Source: Martinezella rhizogenes
GTDB taxonomy: Bacteria; Pseudomonadota; Alphaproteobacteria; Rhizobiales; Rhizobiaceae
Assembly (NCBI RefSeq): GCF_027460065.1
Contig: NZ_JAPYZZ010000016.1
Span: 83,184-147,183, forward strand
Direction of reading: 5' to 3'
Length of the DNA: 64,000 nucleotides
Under the pieces are notes generated by a model, which had not been told where the DNA came from, did no database searches, and was given only the letters and a program-made list of their open reading frames with translations. A program made the translations under genes and the position numbers. Below, piece by piece: positions 4,613 to 33,397 of the stretch (positions are counted from its first letter, which is position 1; each line of letters starts with the position of its first letter).

Positions 4613-5941
4613 ATGAATGGAAAACAGCCGATCGCCCTGGGCAGCCTGACACGGCGCAGCCTGCTTTCAGCAGCCCCCCTTGCATTGGTCGCCGCCTCGG
4701 GTCTGCGGCCCGTTTCCGTAAGGGCCCAAACGATTGCCTCCACCACGACCGACGCCTTTCTGGACAGCATTGGCGTGTGTGGTCATTTCACCCGCCCCAA
4801 CGGCATCTATACGGAACAATTCGACCGGATCATGCCGGAATTCGAAGCACTCGGCGTGCGACATCTGCGGGATGACGGCCTCATCACGCCGAAAGACAGT
4901 CGCGACAGCCCCGTTTTCCAGAGGCTGCGCCGGATCGTGGCATCGGATATTCGCCTCACCATCATCTGTTACGACAATCTCAACCCCTATGTATCCACAC
5001 CGCTCGACAGGCTCGCGGATTTTTACGCGTGGTGTGACGGGGGGATCGATATTTTCGAAGGCAGCAATGAACCGAACCTGACGAAGGATCCGCAAAATGC
5101 CCCACGCATTTCGGCGGAGCATCAGGCGGCCCTTTACAACGCCGTCCATTCGAATCCGCAACTGAGCGCGGTGCCCGTCGCGGCGCCAAGCTATGTCCTG
5201 ACGCACAGGGCACTGGCATTGGACCTGAAGGATGTGTGCGACTATGGCAATATTCATCCCTATGCGGGGATGGAACATCCCGAAACCACCGGTCCGGGTG
5301 CGCTCTCGAAATCCGTCGCGGCTTCAGCGCATATAGCGGCCGGCAGGGCGGTGCTCGCCACGGAAATGGGCTACCATACCTCGCTGCAGACGAAGACTTT
5401 CCATTTTCCCGTCACCGAAGGCATCAAGGCGCGATACATGCCGCGCATGCTGCTCTGGAGTTTCATCAGCGGCATCCGCCGGTCTTATATTTATGAACTG
5501 GTTTCAAGCTTCGCCGCCGATGCGACGAACCCAGAATCCTCCTTCGGCCTCCTGCGTCACGATCTGAGCCGTACACCCGCTTATGAGGCCGTCCGTGGCC
5601 TTCTTTCGCTCTGCAAGGCAGGCCGCCAGACGACATCTGTGGAACGAGAGGTCACCTTCCTCGATAGCGACGCCCAAAGGTTGGCCATGCCTCTAAGAAG
5701 GCAGGATGGCGCTTTGCTCGTGCCGGTCTGGCTTGCCCTTTCGGGCTGGCAATGGCCCGCCCGGATCGAAAATCCGCCCGTGGAACGGGTCGCGGCATTT
5801 TCGGTGGCCGGCCAGCATAACCGCGTCGTGGCGCATCGTTTCCTCGATGACGGTGCGGTGAGCCAGCAGACGATCGCACAGGAAGGCGGACAATACCGGC
5901 TTTCGGTCAGCGACCAGCTCACGGTTCTGGAAATTTTCTGA
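4613..5941 (+). CDS. Tat-exported clan GH-A glycoside hydrolase
   Basis: The 442-aa product starts with a twin-arginine signal (R14-R15 in TRRSLLSA, hydrophobic stretch, then SVRAQ near residue 38), so a folded enzyme is exported to the periplasm. The body looks like a GH5/GH39-type TIM barrel of clan GH-A. The acid/base glutamate is likely E153 in EGSNEPN (the clan's Asn-Glu-Pro signature), and the nucleophile is likely E251 in LATEMGYHT. Conserved aromatic and His residues sit in NIHPYAG. Being inside a Wzx/Wzy EPS locus, it probably trims or turns over the polymer during export. ATG 4613 follows a GGGAGAC ribosome-binding site. Exact GH family and linkage are not resolved. Confidence 0.8.
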   Translation: MNGKQPIALGSLTRRSLLSAAPLALVAASGLRPVSVRAQTIASTTTDAFLDSIGVCGHFTRPNGIYTEQFDRIMPEFEALGVRHLRDDGLITPKDSRDSPVFQRLRRIVASDIRLTIICYDNLNPYVSTPLDRLADFYAWCDGGIDIFEGSNEPNLTKDPQNAPRISAEHQAALYNAVHSNPQLSAVPVAAPSYVLTHRALALDLKDVCDYGNIHPYAGMEHPETTGPGALSKSVAASAHIAAGRAVLATEMGYHTSLQTKTFHFPVTEGIKARYMPRMLLWSFISGIRRSYIYELVSSFAADATNPESSFGLLRHDLSRTPAYEAVRGLLSLCKAGRQTTSVEREVTFLDSDAQRLAMPLRRQDGALLVPVWLALSGWQWPARIENPPVERVAAFSVAGQHNRVVAHRFLDDGAVSQQTIAQEGGQYRLSVSDQLTVLEIF

Positions 5942-6084
5942 ATGGTGCGGAGGAAATGCCGCATCGCAAAATTGTGTGTATCGCGCCCGCCTGCGGCGTG
6001 TTAGCTTGACTGCATAATGAACTTCGGCTCCGCGAAAGCGGATGCAATATATTACCAAATATTTCTTTATTTTATAGATTGACG

Positions 6085-7197
6085 ATGATGAAAAACTTTA
6101 CGAAAGCGCCCGCAACCGGGGCGCAACGTCTCGATATTCTTCAGGTGATGCGCGCCGTGGCGGCGGTGATGATTGTCGCGTTGCACGCCGATGTGAACTG
6201 GGAATTTACGCTTTTCCCGCTCCGCGCGTTGCGGTTGGGTGGCGGCGTCGATCTGTTTTTCGTCATTTCCGGCTTCGTCATCGTTTATGCCTCCCGGCCT
6301 TATTTCGCGACTGCGGGAGGCCGCTCCGCCTTTCTGCTGCGCCGCTTTCTCCGCATCGTTCCGCTTTACTGGTTTGTGTTGACCGTGCGGCTTGCCATGG
6401 CCGCCATCGCGATGGTTATCGGCGCGAAGGCCTTTCCGCCGCTGCAGTCGATCGTGACCTCCTATCTTTTCATTCCTTATGACAGCATGGGTTATGGCGA
6501 CGCCTATCCGTTTCCACTGATCGATCTGGGCTGGACCCTGAATTACGAGATGTTTTTTTATCTCGTTTTCGCCGTGTTCATATTCCTGCCGCTGGAGCGC
6601 GCCGTCCTCACGACGGCCGGCGTGCTGCTGGTCGCCGTGCTGATCGGCGCGAGCGTCGATCTCGCCCTGCCCTTCAGCTTCTGGTTTCAGCCGATCATTC
6701 TCGAATTCGTCGGGGGAATGTTGATCGCCACGCTTTTCCTGCGGGGCGTGCGCCTGCCGCCCCTGCTCGGCATTGCCACGGCCCTGATCGGCCTCGCGAT
6801 CTGGATGCTGACGGATCTGAGCAGTATCGGCTTCCAGTGCAATCCGGGATGTTACTCCTTTTCGCGGCTGCTCGTCTTCGGCGGCGGCGCCATCCTGCTG
6901 ATGGCGGCAGCGACCCTGACGCGAAACATCTCCCTGCCCCGTTTCGCACAGCCACTGGCAAAGCTCGGCGATTCGTCCTACGCGCTTTATCTGCTGCACC
7001 CGTTTATTTTCCGGGGCTTCAAGACCATGCTCGGCGGCGTCACGTTTCCACCGGAATGGAGCAACCTCGTTTATCTCGTCATCGTCATCAGCACTGTCGC
7101 CATCGCGCATGCATTCCACGTCTTCGTCGAAACACCGGCCAATCTCTGGCTTCGTGACAGACTGATAACATCACCACGAAAAGTCGCCGTGTCCTGA
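6085..7197 (+). CDS. Acyltransferase-3 family membrane protein (ExoZ/OafA type)
   Basis: About 370 residues with roughly ten membrane segments. The acyltransferase-3 signature is clear near the N-terminus: RLDILQVMRAVAAVMIVALHA with the key histidine, then GGGVDLFFVISGFVI. Next come the conserved RRFLRIVPLYW loop and LGWTLNYEMFFYL. Such enzymes O-acylate (usually acetylate) sugars of exopolysaccharides, like ExoZ for succinoglycan. It lies 143 bp after the Tat hydrolase gene in an AT-rich intergenic. ATG 6085 and ATG 6088 are adjacent candidates (a TTG lies two codons earlier); none has a good Shine-Dalgarno. Role in EPS acetylation is inferred from family and context. Confidence 0.87.
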   Translation: MMKNFTKAPATGAQRLDILQVMRAVAAVMIVALHADVNWEFTLFPLRALRLGGGVDLFFVISGFVIVYASRPYFATAGGRSAFLLRRFLRIVPLYWFVLTVRLAMAAIAMVIGAKAFPPLQSIVTSYLFIPYDSMGYGDAYPFPLIDLGWTLNYEMFFYLVFAVFIFLPLERAVLTTAGVLLVAVLIGASVDLALPFSFWFQPIILEFVGGMLIATLFLRGVRLPPLLGIATALIGLAIWMLTDLSSIGFQCNPGCYSFSRLLVFGGGAILLMAAATLTRNISLPRFAQPLAKLGDSSYALYLLHPFIFRGFKTMLGGVTFPPEWSNLVYLVIVISTVAIAHAFHVFVETPANLWLRDRLITSPRKVAVS

Positions 7198-20347: not shown

Positions 20348-20616
20348 TCCACTGCCGAGATGCCACGCTCGGCATCTTCAATCCGATCCAATCTTGCCAT
20401 CGCCCACGGGGGCACGGCAAGACCACGCCGCGCTAGTTCAAAAACGGACATGTAGCAGGCGGAACCGGCTGATGACAACGCGGCCGTTCAGCTGCGCGAT
20501 GCAACCAAAAGGAAACATACCCCTCATAATTCGGCCTAACGAGAGACTTTTTGCCCTGTTAGGGTGTGCAGCAGGGAGGAGTGAGGACACCAACGCGAAC
20601 GGACAGGAGACGGTTC

Positions 20617-22014
20617 ATGGCCCGCACAGTAGTGAATGCGCTTGGAGACACACTCTATTACAGCGGCAGTTCCACCGGATTTTTCTCCGCCACGGGTTCC
20701 GGCCCCCTGCTCGGCGGCACGGCCGGCAATGATTCCATGTGGGGCGACAGTTCCGTCAACGTAACGATGGCGGGCGGCACGGGTGACGATATTTATTATC
20801 TCTATTCCAGCATCAATCGCGCCGTCGAAAATGCCGGCGAAGGCATCGATACCATCGATACCTGGATGAGCTATACCCTGCCCGAGAATTTCGAAAACCT
20901 GCGGGTAACGGGCGACGGGCGTTATGCCTTCGGCAATTCGCTCGACAATATCATCACCGGCGGATCGGGCAGCCAGACGATCGACGGCGGGGCTGGCAAC
21001 GACGTGCTGATCGGCGGCGGCGGTGCAGACACCTTCGTTTTCACCAGCGGCAACGGCACGGATCTCATCATGGATTTCAGCGCCAATGACACGATCCGCC
21101 TCAATGGCTACGGCATCACGTCTTTCGATCAGCTTGTCGGCAATGCCACACAGCAGGGCAACGACCTCTGGCTCAATTTTTCGAATGGCGAAGCCGTCGT
21201 TCTTGCAGGAACGACCGTGGACGATCTTCGGGCCGACCAGTTCGAACTCAGCCTCGACAGATCGTCCTTTACCCAGACCTTTGCCGATGAATTCGACGCG
21301 CTGTCGCTGCGCAGTGGCGGTCAAGGTATCTGGGATGCCAAATATTGGTGGGCGCCGGAAAAGGGAAGCTCGCTGACGACCAATGGCGAGGCGCAATGGT
21401 ACGTCAACCCTGCTTATGCCGGCACGACGGAGGTCAATCCGTTCAGCGTTCAAAACGGCGTCCTGACCATCACCGCCGCGGAAACCACGCAGTCGATCGC
21501 CGATGAAGTCGAGGGTTACGACTATACGTCCGGCATGCTGAACACCTATTCCTCCTTCAGCCAGACCTATGGTTATTTTGAAATCCGGGCGGATATGCCG
21601 ACCGACCGGGGCGCATGGCCGGCCTTCTGGCTGCTGCCGGAAAACGGCTCCTGGCCGCCGGAACTCGATGTCATCGAAATGCGCGGTCAGAATCCCAACA
21701 CGCTCATCATGTCCACCCATTCCAATGCCACCGGCGAGCAGACATCGGTCATAAACAATGTCAGCGTGCCGAGCACGGAGGGGTTTCACACTTACGGCGT
21801 CTTGTGGGATGCCGAACACATCACCTGGTATTTCGACGACGTCGCCGTTGCCCAGACGGACACGCCTGACGATATGCATGACCCCATGTATATGGTCGTC
21901 AACCTTGCCGTTGGCGGAATGGCGGGAACACCATCGGCCAGCGATTTCGGCGACGGCTCACAGATGATGATCGATTACATCAGGGCCTATTCGCTCTCCG
22001 ACTGGGCGGCATGA
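20617..22014 (+). CDS. RTX-GH16 extracellular glycanase (ExsH/ExoK-like)
   Basis: The 465-aa protein starts at ATG 20617 after AGGAGA. Residues about 25-160 hold RTX/haemolysin-type glycine repeats (GGTAGNDSMWG, GGTGDDIYYL, GGAGNDVLIGGGGADTF), which bind calcium and mark type I secretion. Residues about 210-465 form a GH16 domain with the catalytic E-x-D-x-x-E motif E349-L-D-V-I-E354, preceded by RGAWPAFWLLPENGSWPP and followed by HTYGVLWDAEHITWYFDD. There is no Sec signal. The layout matches rhizobial ExsH-like succinoglycan glycanases exported by PrsDE. It presumably cleaves the exopolysaccharide outside the cell. A hairpin terminator follows directly. Confidence 0.9.
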   Translation: MARTVVNALGDTLYYSGSSTGFFSATGSGPLLGGTAGNDSMWGDSSVNVTMAGGTGDDIYYLYSSINRAVENAGEGIDTIDTWMSYTLPENFENLRVTGDGRYAFGNSLDNIITGGSGSQTIDGGAGNDVLIGGGGADTFVFTSGNGTDLIMDFSANDTIRLNGYGITSFDQLVGNATQQGNDLWLNFSNGEAVVLAGTTVDDLRADQFELSLDRSSFTQTFADEFDALSLRSGGQGIWDAKYWWAPEKGSSLTTNGEAQWYVNPAYAGTTEVNPFSVQNGVLTITAAETTQSIADEVEGYDYTSGMLNTYSSFSQTYGYFEIRADMPTDRGAWPAFWLLPENGSWPPELDVIEMRGQNPNTLIMSTHSNATGEQTSVINNVSVPSTEGFHTYGVLWDAEHITWYFDDVAVAQTDTPDDMHDPMYMVVNLAVGGMAGTPSASDFGDGSQMMIDYIRAYSLSDWAA

Positions 22015-23966: not shown

Positions 23967-24458
23967 TTAGGGAGCCGGGTTTCCCGGCAGACCCCGCCCA
24001 CCTGCGTAAGGTTTTGTCTCGCGCTGGATCAGGAACACGGACTTTTCCACCGGCAGCGGCTCAATCGTCCGATAACGGTGAAATCGCCTGGAATATTCAA
24101 ACCGGATGAGCCTGTCATCGAACTTCCCCGCCAGAACGCGGTAGCCGTTGACGAATTCATTCAGGATTTCCAGCTCTTCTCCCCACACCCAGCCGCCGTA
24201 AGACGTCCCTTCATTCGACCGCAGCACGATCTCGAAAAAATGCCCGCCTGCCACCATCGGCATGCGAAAGAGAATATCGAGATTATCCTCGTCTTCCTCG
24301 TCGCCTTTTTCCACCGACAGCCTGGCATGGGCGACCTTCGCATGAACAAGCGCCGAAACCGGATAAAAAGGCCGGCCCTTGAACCACATGAATTCGCTGA
24401 CCGCATAACCGACATCATCGGCACGCTGGTAAGGTTCGATACGCGGCTCGAACGCCAT
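23967..24458 (-). CDS. Hypothetical protein, divergent from the SARP regulator
   Basis: The 163-aa product starts at ATG 24458 five bases after GGAAG. It is a soluble, mixed alpha/beta protein with no domain I know. Notable segments are EFMWFKGRPFYPVSALVHAKVAHARL, an acidic GDEEDEDNLDILF patch and RMPMVAGGHFFEIVLRS. Third-position GC is typical of the window, which supports a real gene. It is divergent from the SARP-TPR regulator at 24655 and shares its 196-bp promoter region, so it may be regulated with, or belong to, the YcaO-TfuA system; this is only positional evidence. Confidence 0.65.
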   Translation of the reverse strand: MAFEPRIEPYQRADDVGYAVSEFMWFKGRPFYPVSALVHAKVAHARLSVEKGDEEDEDNLDILFRMPMVAGGHFFEIVLRSNEGTSYGGWVWGEELEILNEFVNGYRVLAGKFDDRLIRFEYSRRFHRYRTIEPLPVEKSVFLIQRETKPYAGGRGLPGNPAP

Positions 24459-24654
24459 GTAGCTTCCGTTAAACGCGATCACTGTCTAAAATTCCCGATG
24501 CCTGCCCGCCGCATATCCGCTGTTTTCCGCCCGTCATTCATTCTTCTGTTTCCGACAATAGGCAGGCCGCGTCACACCAGCGTCAAATGGAACGCTATGA
24601 TGACTTTCAATTTCCCGAGCACATTGTTAGATGATGTTTCATGAGGGGATGAAC

Positions 24655-26583
24655 GTGGCTGGGAACGCTGAACTGATACCGATCCGGCTATTTGGCACCC
24701 CGCGCTGTGAAGCGGTGCGGGACGCATTTTTTCCGTCCAAGGGCTTTGCCCTCACCGCTGCCCTCATCCTTGCGCCGAACCAGTCGCTTTCCCGCCAGTA
24801 CGCCGCGTCGTTGTTATGGGAAAATGTCGAGCAGAAACGGGCGCTTGGCAATTTACGGCAGCTCATCCTGCGCCTGCAGAAACTTCCCTATGAGGATGAT
24901 GCCATCCTTCTGACAGAAGGGAACGATCTGAAGGCCGGAGCACTGGCGCAGCGCACCGATCTTGCCATTTTCCTGGCCGGTGCAAGAGCCGAAGACCCGA
25001 TGCGGCGGCTCAATGCCCTGCTTGAATTCGGCGGCGATCTGCTAGAGGGGCTGGAGGCCGGGCAGGATCATCTCTACCTCTGGCTGCTTTCGGAGCGCCG
25101 ACGCCTCAAGGATCTGTTCTTTTCGAGCTATACCCAGCTTCTCGAGGAATTGACGCGGTTTGGGCGGGCGAGTTCCAACGACATCGCCAGGCTGGCCGAA
25201 TGCGCCTGCAAGATCGAACCGGAGCGCGAGGAAACCTACCGCGCCGCCATGGCAGCCTATGCACGCGTGGGCAATATCAGCGCCTGCGAAGGCATGTATC
25301 AGCTCCTGCTGGAACAGCTTCGCCAGGAGGACCGCTCGCCTGAAGCGGAAACCGTGGCCCTGAAACGGCGGATACAGAGCCTCGCCGCGACGATAACGGG
25401 CCCGGCGGAGCCCGAAGAAGGCAGCCGCCGAAAAGCATTGGCAAAACCGCGTGTCGCATTCGTTCGCCCGGCCCGGGTCGACGGGCAGCCGGTCCCAACG
25501 GTCATGCATGCCTTTGTTGAGGATGTCGCCAACAGCCTCGTCCGATACCGCACCTTCACCGTGCTTTCGCCGCACAGCACTTTTGCGCTGGCCCATGACC
25601 GGGTGGACGACAGCTACGCCATGCTGCGGGCGGATTACCGCATCATCTCCACCGTCTTCGACGACGCGCGCATGTCCGTTGCGCTGATCGAGGATGCGAG
25701 TGGCGAAATCGTCTGGTCGCTGGAGGCAGTCCTGACCGAGCGGCATATCCATGCCGCCTTCCGGCTGCTCTCCAAACAGGTGGCGGCGGCACTTGCCCGT
25801 GAAATCGAGCGGCTGCAGGTGGAGCCTGACCGCAACCACAGCGGCGAAGCCTACCGGCAATTGCTGGAGGGACAACAGCTTCTGCGCGGCAAATGCGACC
25901 TGCCGCTTCTCAGGAGAGCCCGCTCGATGTTCCGCAAGGCGGTCGATCTCGACCACAGCCTGGCGGTCGCCCGCGCCCGGGTGGCGCAGAGCCTGCAGCT
26001 GGAATGGCTGATGCTGGGCGGCAATGACCCCCACCTGCTGCATCGCGCCAAGGCGGAGGCCGATGCCTCCGTCGAGATCGATCCCGCACTTGGCGTCGGG
26101 CACTGGATGTGCGCCGTCGTGGCGCTCTATCAGCGGGATTTCGACATATCCGCCGAAAAATTCTTCGAGGCGGAGGCGCTCGCGCCCAACTCCGCCGATT
26201 TGCTGCTCCAGCATGCCGATGCGCTTGCGCATTTTGGCGAGGCGGAAATCGCCTGGGACAAGTTTCAGCAGGCCATCGACCTCAACCCGCTGGCCCCTGA
26301 TATCTATTGGTGGGCCGGCGCCAGCATCGCCTTCAAACGTCAGGATTACGGCACGGCGGTGGAACTGTGCGGGCGGATGGAAAATGACGAACCGGCGCTG
26401 CGCGTTCTGACCGCAAGCCACGCGCTGCATGGCGATTTGGCCGCCGCCCGCGAAAGTGGCGGCAGGCTTCAGGAAAACTATCCGGGCATGACCGCAAGGG
26501 AGATCAGTAGCCTGTCTCCGGACCGAGACCCGATAGCGAATGAACTATTCTATAACGCACTTCGATTAGCCGGGATCAAATAG
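24655..26583 (+). CDS. SARP-type transcriptional regulator with TPR domain
   Basis: The start is GTG 24655, seven bases after AGGGG; ATG 24631 and ATG 24649 are alternatives. The 642-aa protein begins with an OmpR-like winged helix (LIPIRLFGTPRCEAV, then LSRQYAASLLWENVEQKRALGNLRQLILRLQKL). A bacterial transcriptional activation domain follows (DLLEGLEAGQDHLYLWLLSERRRLKDLFFSSY through AAYARVGNISACEGMYQLLLEQL), as in SARP/AfsR regulators. The middle resembles the CadC/adenylate-cyclase-associated periplasm-type fold, and the C-terminal third holds TPRs (MCAVVALYQRDFDISAEKFFEAEALAPNSADLLLQHADALAHFGEAE). The stop is 8 bp before the next gene, so it is co-transcribed with the YcaO-TfuA genes and probably activates them. 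Confidence 0.85.
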   Translation: MAGNAELIPIRLFGTPRCEAVRDAFFPSKGFALTAALILAPNQSLSRQYAASLLWENVEQKRALGNLRQLILRLQKLPYEDDAILLTEGNDLKAGALAQRTDLAIFLAGARAEDPMRRLNALLEFGGDLLEGLEAGQDHLYLWLLSERRRLKDLFFSSYTQLLEELTRFGRASSNDIARLAECACKIEPEREETYRAAMAAYARVGNISACEGMYQLLLEQLRQEDRSPEAETVALKRRIQSLAATITGPAEPEEGSRRKALAKPRVAFVRPARVDGQPVPTVMHAFVEDVANSLVRYRTFTVLSPHSTFALAHDRVDDSYAMLRADYRIISTVFDDARMSVALIEDASGEIVWSLEAVLTERHIHAAFRLLSKQVAAALAREIERLQVEPDRNHSGEAYRQLLEGQQLLRGKCDLPLLRRARSMFRKAVDLDHSLAVARARVAQSLQLEWLMLGGNDPHLLHRAKAEADASVEIDPALGVGHWMCAVVALYQRDFDISAEKFFEAEALAPNSADLLLQHADALAHFGEAEIAWDKFQQAIDLNPLAPDIYWWAGASIAFKRQDYGTAVELCGRMENDEPALRVLTASHALHGDLAAARESGGRLQENYPGMTAREISSLSPDRDPIANELFYNALRLAGIK

Positions 26584-26591
26584 GAGATATT

Positions 26592-27020
26592 ATGTCCTCG
26601 CATTTCTTCATTGTTGGAAAAAAGGGTTTTGGCGTTCTTTTCATTCGCACGGCGCCGCTTCGGGTTGCATCCGTATCGCATGAGACGATTGCCGCTTATG
26701 AAGCCAGCCATCCGGGCGTGGATGGCTATGCCCGCGTGGCGGCCGCCGCAAAGTCCATGCTCGTTCGTCAGGACGGCGCGCCGGAAACGGAACTGGATCA
26801 GGTGCAGATTCAGGGCATCGAAGCCCTCGTCGCCGGTGGCGCCGTGGTTTCCGAAGCCGATTTCGCCTTCATCGGCGAAGTGGTCGATGCCGGCTGGGAC
26901 TTCAACCGCATGGTGCAGGCACCGATCGAAGCGGCCCTGAAGGCTGTTGGCCCGGCGGGTTCCGTCACCGGCGAGCTGTTCGACGCCATCCTTGCCGACG
27001 ACAGCAACACGACGCGCTGA
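26592..27020 (+). CDS. 142-aa protein of unknown function in the YcaO-TfuA operon
   Basis: ATG 26592 follows AGGAGATATT, a good ribosome-binding site, 8 bp after the regulator stop. The product has no recognised domain, no cysteine and no signal peptide. It begins MSSHFFIVGKKGFGVLFIRT, has a helical Ala-rich centre, and ends in a flexible GPAGSVTGELFDAILADDSNTTR. YcaO enzymes act on peptides or proteins encoded close by, so position makes this a candidate substrate or adaptor. The absence of Cys and the few Ser/Thr argue against an azole-type core; backbone thioamidation at Gly, as YcaO-TfuA pairs can perform, remains possible. Function is unassigned. Confidence 0.8.
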   Translation: MSSHFFIVGKKGFGVLFIRTAPLRVASVSHETIAAYEASHPGVDGYARVAAAAKSMLVRQDGAPETELDQVQIQGIEALVAGGAVVSEADFAFIGEVVDAGWDFNRMVQAPIEAALKAVGPAGSVTGELFDAILADDSNTTR

Positions 27021-27057
27021 TGACGGCCCTCTTGCCTTGACTGGCGCCGATACTCCC

Positions 27058-28254
27058 ATGTCAGCGACCGCGGCTTCAGGGCATGCAGACGCTTCATTCT
27101 TCGATCCCGGACTGCTTCGGCGGTTCGGGGTCACCCGCGTCGGCGATGTGACCGGCCTCGATATTATCGGCATCCCCGTCTGGTTTGCGGCCCGGCCCAA
27201 TTCGCGGGGCCTCTCCGTCTCGCAGGGCAAGGGACTTTTAGCCGAACAGGCTCGGCTATCGGCGATCATGGAGGCGACCGAAGGCGCAGTTGCCGAAGAA
27301 ACCCGCAGACACGTTACCGCTTTCGGCTCCATCGAGGAGATGCGGAACAAAAGCGTTCCCCTCATACCCTTCGAAACGGTCGGCCGGGTCGATCCGGACG
27401 CTCTCGATCCGCGCAAGGAACGCGCCTGGGTGAAAGGAATTTCCATTCGCCGGCAGCAGGAGGTCTTTGCCCCTTATGAACTCATCGGCATGGATTTCCG
27501 TGTGGACTTCCCATGGGACCGGCGGGCCTTCCGCATGAGCTCGCAAGGGCTCGCGGCCGGGTTCGACCATGACCATGCGGTTTACCATGCCCTGCTCGAA
27601 CTCATCGAAAACGACGCCAGCTTTCTCGTCGATACGTTCGAAACGCGCGCTATCGCACCACAACCGTTTCTCCTTTCGGCAGGAATGGACCCGTCCCTGG
27701 ACGATCTCGTCCGACATCTTTCTGATATCGGCCTGCCGCCCTCCTTCTTCGATCTGACGAATGCGCTTGGCGTGCCGGTGGTAATGGCGAGCTTGCCCCG
27801 CTCGCTTCAGGCTGAGGACGGGCCGGCCACCCGCAGCGCCGCCGGTGCGGCCTGCCGCCCGAGTGCCCATGCCGCCGCCATGGCCGCGCTGCTGGAGGCG
27901 ATCCAGTCGCGGCTGACCGATATCAGCGGCGCAAGGGACGATCTCTCCCCGCTACGCTACCAGCGCGACCTGTCGATGTCAGACACGACGACATCAGGCG
28001 CGCGACCGCTCCGGCGGATGCCAGCCGATCTCAATTTTCCAGAAGGCGATGTCTCCCTACCGCCATGGCGCCGGCTGGCGGAGCACCTCTTCATCAGCGG
28101 GATCGAGGATATCCATGTCTTTCCGCTGGAAACGGAGGTCTCCGGCCTGCATGTCGTCAGGGTTCTGGCAAGCGGCCTCGCCCCGGCCGGCGGCGGCCTG
28201 CAACACATCTCGCCGCGCACGCTCGATCACCTGTTAAATCTCGGAGGTCTCTGA
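27058..28254 (+). CDS. ycaO: YcaO-domain enzyme (TfuA-associated)
   Basis: The 398-aa protein is a YcaO ATP-dependent backbone-modifying enzyme. Visible signatures are the nucleotide-binding S-x-G-K-G loop (SVSQGKG, about residues 53-59) followed by LSAIMEATEG; SSQGLAAGFDHDHAVYHALLELIENDA (typical SxGxAAG...E-x-I-E-x-D-A, about 160-187); and AAMAALLEAIQSRLTDISGARDD (EAxQSR...SGARDD, about 274-297). The C-terminus is DHLLNLGGL and lacks the Pro-rich tail of azoline-forming YcaOs, as expected for non-cyclodehydratase types. YcaO enzymes activate an amide with ATP; with TfuA the known outcome is thioamide formation. ATG 27058 lacks a clear ribosome-binding site, so reinitiation from the upstream gene 37 bp away is likely. 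Its TGA overlaps the tfuA ATG. Confidence 0.92.
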   Translation: MSATAASGHADASFFDPGLLRRFGVTRVGDVTGLDIIGIPVWFAARPNSRGLSVSQGKGLLAEQARLSAIMEATEGAVAEETRRHVTAFGSIEEMRNKSVPLIPFETVGRVDPDALDPRKERAWVKGISIRRQQEVFAPYELIGMDFRVDFPWDRRAFRMSSQGLAAGFDHDHAVYHALLELIENDASFLVDTFETRAIAPQPFLLSAGMDPSLDDLVRHLSDIGLPPSFFDLTNALGVPVVMASLPRSLQAEDGPATRSAAGAACRPSAHAAAMAALLEAIQSRLTDISGARDDLSPLRYQRDLSMSDTTTSGARPLRRMPADLNFPEGDVSLPPWRRLAEHLFISGIEDIHVFPLETEVSGLHVVRVLASGLAPAGGGLQHISPRTLDHLLNLGGL

Positions 28255-28967
28255 TGAAGCCGGTGGTTTTTGCAGGCCCGTCTATCCAAGGCATTGCAGA
28301 TGAACATCTCTCCGGCCTCGAGCGTCGCGGACCGGCAGCCTGCGGTGATATTTTCGAAGCGGTGCGGCAAGGTGCGCGGGCAATCGGGCTGATCGACGGT
28401 CTCTACGGCGATTGCGCGGCGGTGTGGCACAAGGAAATCCTGTTTGCGCTGTCGAGCGGTGTCACCGTTTTTGGCGCCGCCAGCATGGGGGCCCTGAGGG
28501 CGGCGGAATGTGCTGCCTTCGGCATGATCGGCATTGGCGACATATTCGAAGCCTATCGCGACGGGCACCGTGTTTCCGATGCTGACGTGGCGGTGAGCCA
28601 CGCACCCGCTGAACTCGGCTACCGCCCGCTGACGATCGCTCTGGTCGATGCCGAAGCCACGCTCGCCGCCTGCTGTGACGCGATCACCCCCGAGGAACAC
28701 GACGCGCTGGCCTCTGCCGCCCGCACCCTGCATTTTACCTGCAGGACCTGGCGCGCCATCACCACTGAAGCGGGTCTCGGCTCCGCAACGGCAAATCTGC
28801 TCGCCGCCCGTGCGATATCCGCGAAACGCAACGATGCAGCGAGACTTGTGACGGTGCTTAAGGAGGAGCCACTGCCATCCCCGCCGCCGCCAGCATGGAA
28901 ACTGCAGAATACCCTGTTTTTCCAGCAATTGGCTGCGCGACAGGTGGCGGGAGACGAAGCGTCTTGA
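28254..28967 (+). CDS. tfuA: TfuA-domain protein, partner of YcaO
   Basis: The 237-aa product carries the TfuA core (PF07812): VVFAGPSI at the N-terminus, GARAIGLIDGLYGDCAAVWHKEILFALSSGVTVFGAASMGALRAAEC, then GMIGIGDIFEAYRDGHRVSDADVAVSHAP. The D-G-x-(F/Y)-...-V-W-H-K-E-I-L and G-A-x-S-M-G-A-L-R-A-A-E signatures are diagnostic. TfuA proteins pair with YcaO and are thought to deliver sulfide or an amino-group equivalent for thioamide chemistry (McrA thioglycine and thioamitide pathways); they were named from trifolitoxin clusters in Rhizobium. ATG 28254 overlaps the ycaO stop and has a CGGAGG site nine bases upstream. The stop overlaps a TTG start of the next gene. Confidence 0.93.
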   Translation: MKPVVFAGPSIQGIADEHLSGLERRGPAACGDIFEAVRQGARAIGLIDGLYGDCAAVWHKEILFALSSGVTVFGAASMGALRAAECAAFGMIGIGDIFEAYRDGHRVSDADVAVSHAPAELGYRPLTIALVDAEATLAACCDAITPEEHDALASAARTLHFTCRTWRAITTEAGLGSATANLLAARAISAKRNDAARLVTVLKEEPLPSPPPPAWKLQNTLFFQQLAARQVAGDEAS

Positions 28968-30112
28968 CCGCCGCCAATCCCCTGCCGCTGGTGCCCGATT
29001 GCGGCGGTTTGATCCGCACGGTCGCGCTGGCGTTGCCGGCTGCTTTTTTTGCTAAAAGCGGAGTAGACGACCCCGTTTCACCGCTCACCCCAATCGGAAA
29101 CCTGCTCTCAGCCCTGCCCTCCGATATCATCGCCGTTATAGTCATCGACAACATCACTCTTGCACCGGCACGAAATTGGCTTGCCAGCCTGCCAATCCGC
29201 TGCATCTGCGAACTTGTGCCCCTTTCTGGAAACGGCAACATCCCGCATCCGTGGATACAGGACATGTTCCATGTGCGGGCAAGCGATCGCGGACGAGGAG
29301 CGGCACCGGAACTTGTCCTGGTGACGGAGAATAGTATCGGCCCTGGTCTGGCCGAGCATCTCGGAGTAGCAGTCACGCATTCGGACATAACACTGGAGGG
29401 CGGCAACCAGCTTGTCGGCCCGGACTTTCGGCTGGTAGGCCATGCCGGCCTCGTTGATGACAGCGGGTTCGGACGGCAGGTGGCCGCCACCGCACATCGG
29501 CGGCGGAAAATTGAGGCGCTCGACGGCAGAAGCGTGCACAGTTTCGGATACCGGCCGCAAGACCTCGGTAATATCCCCTTCGATCTTTTGGCCGTACAAA
29601 TCGACCCGACACTAATCGAGGGAAAGATGCACCAATGCGGTTTCCACGTCGATCAGTTCGTTTCCGTCACCGGTCTCGAACGCAATGGCCGTCCGCTCCT
29701 GCTCATCGCCGATCCTGTCGCGCAGGGCGGATGTAATCTCCGCGCCGCAACCGAGCTGAAACGGAAACTGGACGCTTCGGCCCTCTCGCTTGCACGGCAG
29801 GGTTTTGCGATTGAGCGCAACCCCATTCCGGTTGTGCCTACTATCGACACCAATAAATGCCTGCCCAGACTTTACAACAATGTCGTTCTTGAAAATGTCA
29901 CACGGTCCGGTCAGAAACGGCCATTCGTCTGGATTCCGCATTTCGGCGATACTGAAACGCTTGAGGAGTTTGACGCGGTGAATCGGAAAATCTGGGACGG
30001 GCTGGGCTTTCAGCCAATCGGCGTGGCCGGATGGAGCCACCTTTCGAGCCGCAACGGCGCGTTGCGCTGCGCAATAAAGACTATAGATCGTGATCAGGAC
30101 ACAAGATTATGA
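28964..30112 (+). CDS. Peptidylarginine deiminase (PAD) superfamily protein
   Basis: The 382-aa product resembles the catalytic domain of vertebrate-type protein-arginine deiminases (PF03068). It has HPWIQDMFHVR (cf. W-(I/M)-Q-D-E of PADs), FHVDQFVSVTG (cf. G-H-V-D-E-F), LPRLYNNVVLEN (cf. F-P-N-M-V-N) and GALRCAIKTI (cf. G-E-V-H-C-G-T-N). The four catalytic residues map to D100, H228, D230 and C369. The arginines that PADs use to grip the substrate backbone are not apparent in the aligned VTENSIGPGL segment, so the substrate may differ. Family activity is hydrolysis of guanidines (Arg to citrulline) or amidine transfer. TTG 28964 overlaps the tfuA stop and has GGGAG upstream; ATG 28895 is an alternative without a ribosome-binding site. 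Confidence 0.78.
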   Translation: MTAANPLPLVPDCGGLIRTVALALPAAFFAKSGVDDPVSPLTPIGNLLSALPSDIIAVIVIDNITLAPARNWLASLPIRCICELVPLSGNGNIPHPWIQDMFHVRASDRGRGAAPELVLVTENSIGPGLAEHLGVAVTHSDITLEGGNQLVGPDFRLVGHAGLVDDSGFGRQVAATAHRRRKIEALDGRSVHSFGYRPQDLGNIPFDLLAVQIDPTLIEGKMHQCGFHVDQFVSVTGLERNGRPLLLIADPVAQGGCNLRAATELKRKLDASALSLARQGFAIERNPIPVVPTIDTNKCLPRLYNNVVLENVTRSGQKRPFVWIPHFGDTETLEEFDAVNRKIWDGLGFQPIGVAGWSHLSSRNGALRCAIKTIDRDQDTRL

Positions 30113-30239
30113 ATGGAAAACCATGCCGTTTCGTCAATAAAGCTTCACAATACCCGTGGAAATTGTATTGAATATATACCTTCAACAATATTAATTGACG
30201 ATCATCGAATTTAAGAACCTCACACAGGAGGAATTTGTA

Positions 30240-30677
30240 ATGCAAGCCAAACTACCCAGCCCTATTGATGTCCATGTGGGCACACAGATCAGAATGCGCC
30301 GCAAGTCGCTCGGTATGAGCCAGAGCGCGCTGGCCGGGCGATTGGGCATCACCTTCCAGCAGGTCCAGAAGTATGAAAAGGGCGCCAACCGCGTCGGCGC
30401 GTCCCGTCTGCAGGCCATTGCGTCGATCCTTGGCGTCGAGGTCAGCTCTCTGTTCGCCAATGCCACGCCCGATGGCGGAGCCGCCAACCCGGCGCTTGGC
30501 ACGATCAATGCCATGCAGACCTTCGTGGCCTCGAATGAAGGGTTTTCGCTCAATCAGGCCTTTTCGCGGATCAAGAGCACGGCCGTTCGCAGAAGCATCG
30601 TTGCCCTCGTGACGTCGCTAGCAGCGAGCGAAACGGCTGAAAATGTCGCCGCGCCGACGGACAAAAGCGACGATTGA
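30240..30677 (+). CDS. XRE-family transcriptional regulator (PraR-like)
   Basis: The start is ATG 30240, seven bases after a near-perfect AGGAGG. The 145-aa protein has a Cro/CI helix-turn-helix at about residues 14-75: [60 protein letters not shown]. This exact style (PIDVHVGxxIRxRRxxLGMSQ...GITFQQ(V/I)[16 protein letters not shown]) is shared by rhizobial PraR/SinR-like regulators, several of which affect biofilm and surface polysaccharide. The C-terminal helical part probably dimerises. It has its own AT-rich promoter region (30113-30239) after the PAD-like gene, so it may or may not control the YcaO-TfuA operon. Confidence 0.87.
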
Positions 30678-30770
30678 CGCAGGTGTGACGCTCGCGTGAC
30701 GCTCGATATGGTCGAAAATGAACAACGCGGGATCAACGCGTTTCATACTGTCGACTGTCGAGAGGGAATC

Positions 30771-31004
30771 ATGGTGGCGTCTACCACAGCAATAGTTGAA
30801 CAGGACAATGCGGACGAGATTCTGGCGCTCGGGCGGATGGTGTCCTATCTCTGCCAGCGCTCCAAATCTCTGGAACTCGGCATGTCGACCTATTTCCTGG
30901 AAATGGCATTGTTGTCGCTGGCCCAGGACATCAATCAGCATGGCTTGCCACAGGCAGGCGCAGAGATGAACGGCAGCGGTTTCGCACACGCCGAACTACA
31001 TTAA
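30771..31004 (+). CDS. Small hypothetical protein (77 aa)
   Basis: The start is ATG 30771 with GAGAGGGA upstream; an in-frame opening at 30696 has weaker support. The product is small and helical (DNADEILALGRMVSYLCQRSKSLELGMSTYFLEMALLSLAQDI), with one cysteine and no membrane segment. It lies 93 bp after the PraR-like regulator on the same strand. I do not recognise the family. A hairpin at 31045-31067 follows, so it could end a two-gene unit with the regulator. Confidence 0.6.
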   Translation: MVASTTAIVEQDNADEILALGRMVSYLCQRSKSLELGMSTYFLEMALLSLAQDINQHGLPQAGAEMNGSGFAHAELH

Positions 31005-31202: not shown

Positions 31203-31985
31203 TCAGGAGACGACCGCGCCCGGCCCCGCCACCGCGCCTGATGGCACCTTGCCCAGAATGATCATGCCGAGAACCTCGTCCTTGGTGACATCCTCGGTCC
31301 GCGCATGACCGACCACCTTGCCGTTTTTCATGACGAAAACCCGGTCAGCCAGATCGAAGACGTCATGGATATCGTGGCTGATGAGGAAGATGCCGATGCC
31401 CTGCCGTTTCAGCTCCTTGACGAGGTCGCCCACCTGCGCCGTTTCCTGCGGTCCGAGTGCTGCCGTCGGTTCGTCCATGATGAGGATGCGGGCATCGAAC
31501 AGAATGGCGCGGGCAATGGCGACAGACTGACGCTGACCACCCGAGAGCGCCTTCACCGGCTCCTTGAACCGCCGGAAATTGGGGTTGAGGCGTCCCATCA
31601 CTTCGCGGGCCGAGGCTTCCATGGCGACATCGTCTAGCGTGCCCCATTTCGTCTTCAGCTCGCGGCCGAGATAAAGATTGGCCGCCGCATCGACATTATC
31701 GGCCACTGCCAGCGTCTGGTAGATGGTTTCGATGCCGTATTTCTTGGCGTCGCGGGGATTGCGGATATCCGCATCCTCGCCATTGATGAGGATTTCGCCA
31801 CCATCGCGCCTATATGCGCCGGACAATATCTTGATGAGCGTCGATTTGCCTGCGCCGTTGTGGCCAAGAAGGGCGACCACCTCGCCGGGGAAAAGATCGA
31901 CTGAGGCGTTTTCCACCGCATGGATACCGCCGAAGGAAATGGAAATATTGCGCATTTCCACGAGGGGCGTGACTTGTTCCGTCAT
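31203..31985 (-). CDS. xylG: Sugar ABC transporter ATP-binding protein (xylose; short CUT2 type)
   Basis: The 260-aa ATPase has Walker [10 protein letters not shown] (about 38-46), Q-loop near TIYQTLAV, signature [15 protein letters not shown], Walker [13 protein letters not shown] and the H-loop SHDIHDVF. Most CUT2 sugar ATPases (RbsA, XylG of E. coli) are tandem proteins near 500 aa; this one has a single ATPase domain, like rhizobial FrcA, and should act as a homodimer. It powers uptake with the permease gene immediately upstream (18 bp) and the XylF-like binding protein. The xylose assignment comes from the XylF-like partner and the ROK regulator, not from this protein itself. Confidence 0.88.
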
Positions 31986-32003
31986 TGGGGTTCTCCTCGG
32001 TTC

Positions 32004-33317
32004 TTACTTGGCGCGGGCGCGATAGATGGTGTCGAGCCAGACGGCGACGACCAGGACCACACCGACGACGATGCGCTGGAAAGGCGTATCGATGCCCACC
32101 AGCACCATGCCGGACTGCAGCGATTGCATGACGAGCGCGCCGAGCATCGCGCCCGCTATGGTGCCGACACCGCCGGCAAGCGAGGTGCCGCCGATGACCG
32201 CGGCCGCGATCGTATAAAGTTCGTCGAGTTCACCCTGGGCATTGGTGGCCGCGTTGAGGCGGGCCGTGGAAATTGCCGCAGCGATGGCACACAGAACGCC
32301 CATCAGCGTGAAAATCTTCACCGTGACCCAGCGGGTCTTGATGCCGGCCAATTCCGCCGCTTCCGGGTTACCGCCGATGGCGAAGACATAGCGGCCAAAG
32401 CGCAGCCTCGTCGCAATGAAGGTCATGACGGCACCGACGGCGAGCGCCATCAGCACCGGAATGGCAATGCCGTGCGGAATGAACAGACCGCCATCCGGCC
32501 AGGCGATACCATTAGCATCGGCATAGTTGCGGGCGATGTTGATCGGCCAAGGGTAGCTGTTGACGACAGCCACGAAACCGATGACGACGAAGCAGCCGAG
32601 TGCCACCAGGAAATATTCCGCCCAGACCGGCCGCAGCGGGAAACCGAAGCGGCGGCGCTGATGGCGGGAATTGAGGATTGCCGCAACGATGGCGACACAG
32701 GCGATGACGGCAGCGATCCAGCTCCATGTCGCGCCGATCGAGCCGCTGGTGCCACCACCCATCAGGCGGAAGGTGGAATCCATCGGCGCCACGGTGCGGC
32801 CGCTGGTGACGAACCAGGTGCCGCCGCGCCAGACAAGCAGGCCACCAAGCGTGACGATGAAGGACGGTACATTGAGGAATGCGATGATCGAGCCCTGCAA
32901 CATGCCGATGGCACCGCCGACGAGAATGCCGACCAGCAGCGTGACGATCCATGTCGCCCAATGTTCGAAACCGAGGAGCTGCGGCAGGATTTCCGCCTGC
33001 ATGACACCCATGATCATGCCGGAAAAGCCGAGGATCGACCCGACCGACAGATCGATGTTGCGGGTGACGATGACGAGTACCATGCCGGTCGCCATCACAG
33101 CCACGGAAGCGGTCTGTACCGAGAGGTTCCAGAGGTTTCGCGGCGTCAGGAACAGGCCGCCGGACAGGATATGAAATCCGATCCAGATCAGAAGAAGCGC
33201 GCCGACCATGCCGAGCAGCCGGGTATCAAGCTCCGTGGCGCTGATGAAACGCGAAATCGAGCCCGTCTTTTCCGTCTTGGGGGACGCTGTGGAATTGGAT
33301 TGTGTCATGTCGGCCAT
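32004..33317 (-). CDS. xylH: Sugar ABC transporter permease (xylose, CUT2)
   Basis: The 437-aa permease has about 10-12 membrane segments and BPD_transp_2 family features: RNLWNLSVQTASVAVMATGMVLVIVTRNIDLSVGSILGFSGM near the N-terminus and late in the protein GGNPEAAELAGIKTRWVTVKIFTLMGVLCAIAAA, then GGTSLAGGVGTIAGAMLGAL. These are typical of XylH/RbsC/FrcC. The start is ATG 33317 with AGGAGG about 11 bases upstream; an upstream frame to 33380 lacks support. It is the middle gene of xylF-xylH-xylG, 80 bp after xylF. It forms the inner-membrane channel for the sugar bound by XylF. Confidence 0.92.
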   Translation of the reverse strand: MADMTQSNSTASPKTEKTGSISRFISATELDTRLLGMVGALLLIWIGFHILSGGLFLTPRNLWNLSVQTASVAVMATGMVLVIVTRNIDLSVGSILGFSGMIMGVMQAEILPQLLGFEHWATWIVTLLVGILVGGAIGMLQGSIIAFLNVPSFIVTLGGLLVWRGGTWFVTSGRTVAPMDSTFRLMGGGTSGSIGATWSWIAAVIACVAIVAAILNSRHQRRRFGFPLRPVWAEYFLVALGCFVVIGFVAVVNSYPWPINIARNYADANGIAWPDGGLFIPHGIAIPVLMALAVGAVMTFIATRLRFGRYVFAIGGNPEAAELAGIKTRWVTVKIFTLMGVLCAIAAAISTARLNAATNAQGELDELYTIAAAVIGGTSLAGGVGTIAGAMLGALVMQSLQSGMVLVGIDTPFQRIVVGVVLVVAVWLDTIYRARAK

Positions 33318-33397
33318 GGACTGCCGGTCCTCCTTACATCTGAAAAGCGCCGCGCCACCTGATCGTGACGCGGCGCCCAAACATCAACCTACCGGTC

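Follow-up and report, generated by a model that had tools for sequence, protein, structure and literature searches.

A YcaO–TfuA gene cluster with a deiminase-fold enzyme and a putative 142-residue precursor in Martinezella rhizogenes: a proposed thioamide- and citrulline-forming system

In the known YcaO–TfuA systems, YcaO activates a backbone amide and TfuA delivers the sulphide that converts it to a thioamide. Adjacent YcaO and TfuA genes with a nearby precursor gene are the shared feature of the TfuA-related clusters for ribosomally synthesised and post-translationally modified peptides (RiPPs), a class recognised by antiSMASH and surveyed in PMC8120280. A locus of Martinezella rhizogenes has this arrangement and adds to it a SARP-type regulator and an enzyme resembling peptidylarginine deiminases (PADs). 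It lies within a stretch of 64,000 nucleotides (hereafter the window; positions 83,184 to 147,183 of contig NZ_JAPYZZ010000016.1, assembly GCF_027460065.1), to which all coordinates of its genes refer.

The locus resembles several described systems in part. It differs from the TfuA-related clusters of PMC8120280, as portrayed in the main text of that survey, in its long precursor, which has an internal core and a conserved tail. In that text, Rhizobium and Agrobacterium figure among the dominant TfuA cluster families of the Proteobacteria, so clusters of this kind have already been counted by genome mining, and PMC12993520 lists TfuA-related regions for Rhizobium sp. SL42. Neither ‘deiminase’ nor ‘arginine’ occurs in the main text of the survey, and no WxxxR core was noticed in its main-text passages. 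The std cluster of Streptomyces thermodiastaticus likewise places a YcaO–TfuA thioamide beside a ureido side chain, with an Asn thioamide followed by a Lys converted to homocitrulline (PMC13174530). There, however, homocitrulline is made by a NodU-like carbamoyltransferase and hydroxylated by an MNIO, and the authors state that the cluster has no peptidylarginine deiminase, whereas here a PAD-fold enzyme would convert Arg to citrulline. Citrulassins are likewise RiPPs in which a peptidylarginine deiminase produces citrulline, but they are lasso peptides, and the opening of the abstract mentions no YcaO–TfuA pair (PMC12971885). In the McrA thioglycine system (PMC5589413), a YcaO–TfuA pair acts on a protein, and the NCBIfam McrA models match both genes here; that protein, however, is a large enzyme of an unrelated kind, and the scores here fall under the curated cut-offs. 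A literature search, to which most subscription papers and supplements were external, found no paper joining YcaO–TfuA with a deiminase or describing a GWDFNR core.

The locus comprises five genes on the forward strand. Gaps of 8 and 37 nt separate the first three, and overlaps of 1 and 4 nt join the rest. This agrees with a preliminary description of this DNA, which gave a co-directional run (spacing of −4 to +37 bp) forming an uncharacterised YcaO–TfuA operon that also encodes a SARP-type regulator and a PAD-like enzyme. The five genes encode the regulator (24631..26583, with a start possibly as late as 24655, the position first given), the 142-aa putative precursor (26592..27020), YcaO (27058..28254), TfuA (28254..28967), and the PAD-like enzyme (28964..30112), which starts at a TTG codon and shares its first 4 nt with the end of tfuA. 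YcaO, the proposed ATP-dependent activator of a backbone amide for thioamidation, matches Pfam PF02624 (E 4.1e-51) and exceeds the cut-off of the NCBIfam YcaO-type domain model TIGR00702 (115.7 bits against 75.65). It also matches TIGR03266, the model for the YcaO of McrA-glycine thioamidation, with 132 bits, under its cut-off of 365. The closest solved chain is MJ1094 (6pe3, E 2.4e-17). TfuA, the proposed sulphur-transfer partner, matches PF07812 (E 3.8e-41) and scores 158.6 bits with ThioGly_TfuA_rel, under the cut-off of 235.2. The locus therefore holds the adjacent YcaO and TfuA domains by which thioamide-forming systems of this type are recognised.

No obvious precursor had been seen in the preliminary description. 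The 142-aa gene nevertheless behaves as one, and it is most likely the precursor gene of the cluster, because its product has invariant core residues, its paralogues contain tandem core repeats, duplicated copies occur, and its position is taken by a smaller precursor-like gene in sister clusters. Only G9, P22, Y36, F91, R106, and P111 are invariant in 44 aligned precursors. R106 is the sole invariant arginine (the runner-up, R24, is present in 41), and W102 is found in 42 rows, with Tyr in the other 2. We read the protein as a leader (residues about 1–90), a strand (about 91–98), a core (about 100–111), and a conserved tail. Codon positions place the core, G101-W-D-F-N-R106-M-V-Q-A-P111, at 26892..26924 on the forward strand. 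The pattern [WY]x3Rx4P occurs beyond residue 60 in 68 of 69 distinct precursors, a count that omits six fragments or shifted rows. Repetition of the core is a hallmark of RiPP precursors. Here, second precursors carry tandem segments resembling ADIAMVGGV-x3-GWDxNR-x4-P, five in Rhizobium straminoryzae (L087) and four in Rhizobium sp. CSW-27 (L088), and the locus of Mesorhizobium albiziae (L094) encodes two precursors. A gene-encoded precursor with a conserved core thus stands beside modifying enzymes, as in RiPP clusters generally.

It is rather probable, in our judgement, that this is a RiPP-type cluster in which the 142-aa precursor receives a core thioamide from YcaO–TfuA and the PAD-like enzyme converts Arg106 to citrulline. 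Leader and strand (residues about 1–98) would present the core, in which YcaO would activate a backbone amide in an ATP-dependent manner while TfuA helps to deliver the sulphide that yields the thioamide. The invariant Arg106 would become citrulline before or after thioamidation, and the operon would be controlled by the SARP-type regulator together with an XRE-type regulator encoded downstream. The thioamide could lie just before the arginine, at Asn105. This is a reasonable first guess, since the std cluster carries its thioamide on the Asn before homocitrulline, but not a firm one, as Asn105 is present in 36 of the 44 precursors and is not invariant. Our guess for the product is a peptide ligand or signal.

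The PAD-like enzyme is so called by fold. Its model has the deiminase fold of the guanidino-group-modifying superfamily, which agrees with the preliminary description, but the expected membership of PF03068 did not hold. Neither the PAD-like nor the 142-aa protein of the window matched any Pfam family, and PF03068 is absent from the 10 families matched at E≤1 by any of 66 PAD homologues; PAD_porph matched two of these weakly (best E 0.0084). Its nearest named relatives are from Agrobacterium, and the 5.9-Mb genome that holds the window is Agrobacterium-like. Across 66 aligned rows D100 and D230 are invariant and H228 and C369 nearly so, and we take these four as candidate catalytic residues. 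Pattern matching over 112 PAD matches finds WxQD/WxRD in 110; the HxD histidine is kept in 109 and the cysteine in 105, with the misses falling in short rows, two full-length uninspected rows (P0046, P0073), and P0105 and P0106. The candidate catalytic Asp, His-x-Asp, and Cys of the deiminase superfamily are therefore present.

The arrangement of these genes is strongly conserved. Precursor, YcaO, TfuA, and PAD-like genes follow one another on one strand in all 30 loci found via the PAD-like gene, and the regulator precedes them in 29, the exception (L083) being cut by the start of its contig. The arrangement is not due to chance. Since these loci were sampled via the PAD-like gene, a separate YcaO-based search covered 39 genomes of the genus (G001–G036, G827, G828, and the genome of the window). 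This YcaO clade occurs, at least 73% identical, in 21 of them (in G005, as three pieces of 68–82%), and all 21 have a GWDFNR precursor beside YcaO as well as a PAD-like gene, that of G827 coming from a separate search. In G005 (L012, L140), of the Agrobacterium group, the PAD-like gene has an open frame, whereas matches to YcaO and to TfuA are broken up among several, reflecting either decay or an assembly error. Among 247 Rhizobiaceae genomes, TfuA was found in 70, and PAD-like and precursor matches in the same 6, about 3 kb apart. The 142-aa gene thus accompanies the PAD-like gene wherever either occurs in that set, which answers a check proposed in the preliminary description.

The cluster extends beyond the genus. 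Regulator, precursor, YcaO, TfuA, and PAD-like genes are all present in Stappia and Roseibium (L092, L093), in Mesorhizobium albiziae, and in G692 (L154), from a further genus of the family. G520 (L113), which belongs to a different family of the order, has the five genes in the same succession. Precursor, YcaO, TfuA, and PAD-like genes were also found in G125 (L028, L098). Distant cores include EWGTYRDNFIP (L113) and GWEACRLWNVP (L098). Among 297 genomes of the order, PAD-like matches occur in four besides the genome of the window (G520, G046, G441, and G304). In G046, which represents a third family, YcaO, TfuA, and PAD-like genes lie in order (L022), and inspection of its open reading frames adds a regulator and a small precursor-like gene, which does not match the precursor profile. 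G441 (L114) has no YcaO or TfuA match near its PAD-like gene (5593–7110), which by eye keeps the HxD and Cys motifs. In G304, an incomplete genome, a distant PAD-like fragment at a contig end (L115, 1–6127) adjoins, by eye, an apparent peptidase-type ATP-binding cassette (ABC) exporter, a second ABC gene, and an HlyD protein, and may belong to a further RiPP cluster with a deiminase. Two Rhizobiaceae plasmids, of which one was classed as conjugative, have PAD matches next to annotated YcaO/TfuA-like or equally placed genes, and so the cluster may move.

A second, PAD-less family of YcaO–TfuA clusters, with precursors of about 72 aa, appears from sequence to exist in the Rhizobiaceae. A different YcaO, 30–39% identical, occurs in 14 of the 39 genomes of the genus, and none of these 14 has a PAD match. 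The two kinds of cluster never occur in one genome of the genus (21 against 14, with neither in the other 4). Together with 20 other PAD-less TfuA loci of the family, the 14 form a set of 34 loci, none with a PAD-like gene. The preliminary description had tied its proposal to the presence of this gene beside homologous YcaO–TfuA pairs, which holds within the clade of the window (21 of 21), while distant pairs are without it (34 of 34). All 14 loci of the genus and 7 of the 20 others (together L150–L153, L155–L164, L171, L174–L176, L179, L180, and L184) have a small precursor-like gene, about 72 aa long, at the YcaO start. A homologue of the regulator is present in 20 of these 21 loci, and a tblastn match to the XRE-type gene likewise in 20 of the 21. 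The short precursors end in cores such as GIHEG, SGHLDG, and GGYMDG, and two are multi-core, with FSGKLE/D four times (L171) or GGYMD three times (L180). In none of the 21 does the tail after the (K/N)(G/N)(V/I) leader strand contain an Arg. Core arginine and PAD-like enzyme therefore go together in the loci examined.

Several observations weigh against the proposed scheme, and some of them suit other readings. In eleven Agrobacterium-group loci (L066–L074, L078, L095), identity to the window protein is 89–97% for the precursor and 90–95% for the regulator, as against 60–72% for PAD, 73–84% for YcaO, and 73–81% for TfuA. The leader and tail of the precursor are about as conserved as much of its core. 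Since the regulator is equally conserved, high conservation alone is no mark of a precursor. The sole sequence without the [WY]x3Rx4P motif is the putative precursor of G046 (L096). No peptidase, exporter, or transporter is kept across genera in the flanks, where genes were clustered and not individually named; the earlier remark that the locus has neither transporter nor peptidase stands to that extent, and leader removal and export may be encoded elsewhere. The whole-length conservation of the precursor and the lack of a shared peptidase or exporter would suit a small folded 142-aa protein that acts at full length once modified, like McrA with its thioglycine, with no peptide released. This is the modified-protein idea of the preliminary description with a substrate encoded in the operon itself. 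We regard it as unlikely, though far from negligible. The best AlphaFold2 model fits it, having a mean predicted local distance difference test score of 80.8 (the lowest of five models reached 47.6) and strands and helices throughout, with the core after a strand, as do the sub-threshold McrA matches of YcaO and TfuA. It sits poorly with the tandem core repeats of L087 and L088, the duplicated precursors of L094, and the short sister-cluster precursors, two of them with repeated C-terminal cores. The preliminary description had inferred a modified cellular protein, and not a secreted RiPP, from the missing precursor; that inference is not supported, since the 142-aa gene behaves as a precursor, while a full-length modified protein may still be the end product, as no peptidase or exporter is kept across genera. 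It is very improbable that the 142-aa protein is instead a partner or chaperone of YcaO, TfuA, and PAD whose true substrate is encoded elsewhere. It is strongly conserved from end to end, as the regulator is, which would fit such a role, and the modelled N-terminal order strand-strand-strand-helix-helix-helix recalls the RiPP recognition element (RRE), a leader-binding domain. Fold searches, however, gave no match at E≤0.001, and the rows listed included no RRE, an absence that proves little, and the core repeats would be hard to explain.

The citrulline step of the proposed scheme is open to similar doubts. The PAD fold is matched no less well by agmatine deiminases than by peptidyl deiminases, and in two full-length homologues (P0105 and P0106) Ala replaces the His and Ser the Cys, which may indicate natural inactive forms or changed chemistry; their loci and precursors were searched for and not found. 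The enzyme might make no citrulline in the precursor: it could be a dihydrolase with ornithine as product, or its substrate could be agmatine or another small guanidine. This seems improbable to us, given that the PAD-like enzyme pairs with one precursor family and an invariant core arginine. The match between enzyme and arginine has its own limits. Of the 21 short precursors, 18 were chosen by eye to seed the profile, a precursor was identified in none of the remaining 13 of the 34 PAD-less loci (L165–L170, L172, L173, L177, L178, L181–L183), so that the arginine rule covers 21 only, and profile comparison found no significant similarity between long and short precursors. On the tree, the PAD-positive YcaOs group together, with support of 87/62 for 23 rows and of 100/100 for the 22 left when L096 is removed, and the match may consequently rest on a single event. 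An automated count of labels on the tree gave two changes, attributed to a wrong reading frame for L091.

The cluster extends beyond the five genes first delineated. Over 31 rows (the window and the 30 loci found via the PAD-like gene), a divergent gene for a 171-aa protein lies 56–184 bp upstream of the regulator in 28; in the window it occupies 23967..24482 on the reverse strand. Its membership follows from conservation, and the protein has no Pfam or NCBIfam match at E≤1. Downstream, an XRE-type helix-turn-helix (HTH) gene (30195..30677, forward; HTH_3, E 2.3e-13), a probable cluster gene, follows PAD within 150 bp in 23 rows. A small protein of about 100 aa (30696..31004, forward) is a possible further member, with homologues 3′ of the HTH gene in 21 rows and no Pfam or NCBIfam family over cut-off. 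The SARP assignment of the regulator follows from its BTAD domain (PF03704, E 4.4e-20). The C-terminus is TPR-like, although its TPR_11 match (E 0.0022) is under the family cut-off; residues 1–117 have no Pfam match and resemble a SARP N-terminus, with its winged-helix DNA-binding domain, by eye only. Farther out, the genes at 31203..33380, by eye sugar-type ABC genes, are matched in 12–14 of the 31 rows, and around L075, L085, and L089, three reference loci from other genera, at most four loci share any one outer gene. Among the genes conserved across genera no lasso cyclase or protease was seen, although no search used lasso gene models. At 20566–22014 the window also encodes a beta-glycanase, EglC (NF052454, 817.8 bits, over cut-off), with calcium-binding repeats.

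A bolder reading, which we consider doubtful, is that a backbone thioamide and a citrulline in one WxxxR motif define a new RiPP class, convergent with the thioamide and homocitrulline of std, in which thioamide plus ureido is the working group, possibly on an uncut 142-aa protein. If true, two unrelated routes would lead to a thioamide beside a ureido side chain, and this pair would itself be what binds a metal or is recognised by a receptor. The open-ended idea of a modified cellular protein is in any case narrowed to one 142-aa protein and one arginine, and the PAD-positive and PAD-less sister clusters offer a built-in comparison. If the proposed scheme is right, a widely studied plant-associated genus would carry a new RiPP family, whose precursor is unusually long and strongly conserved and whose single, nearly invariant motif is predicted to bear two rare modifications.

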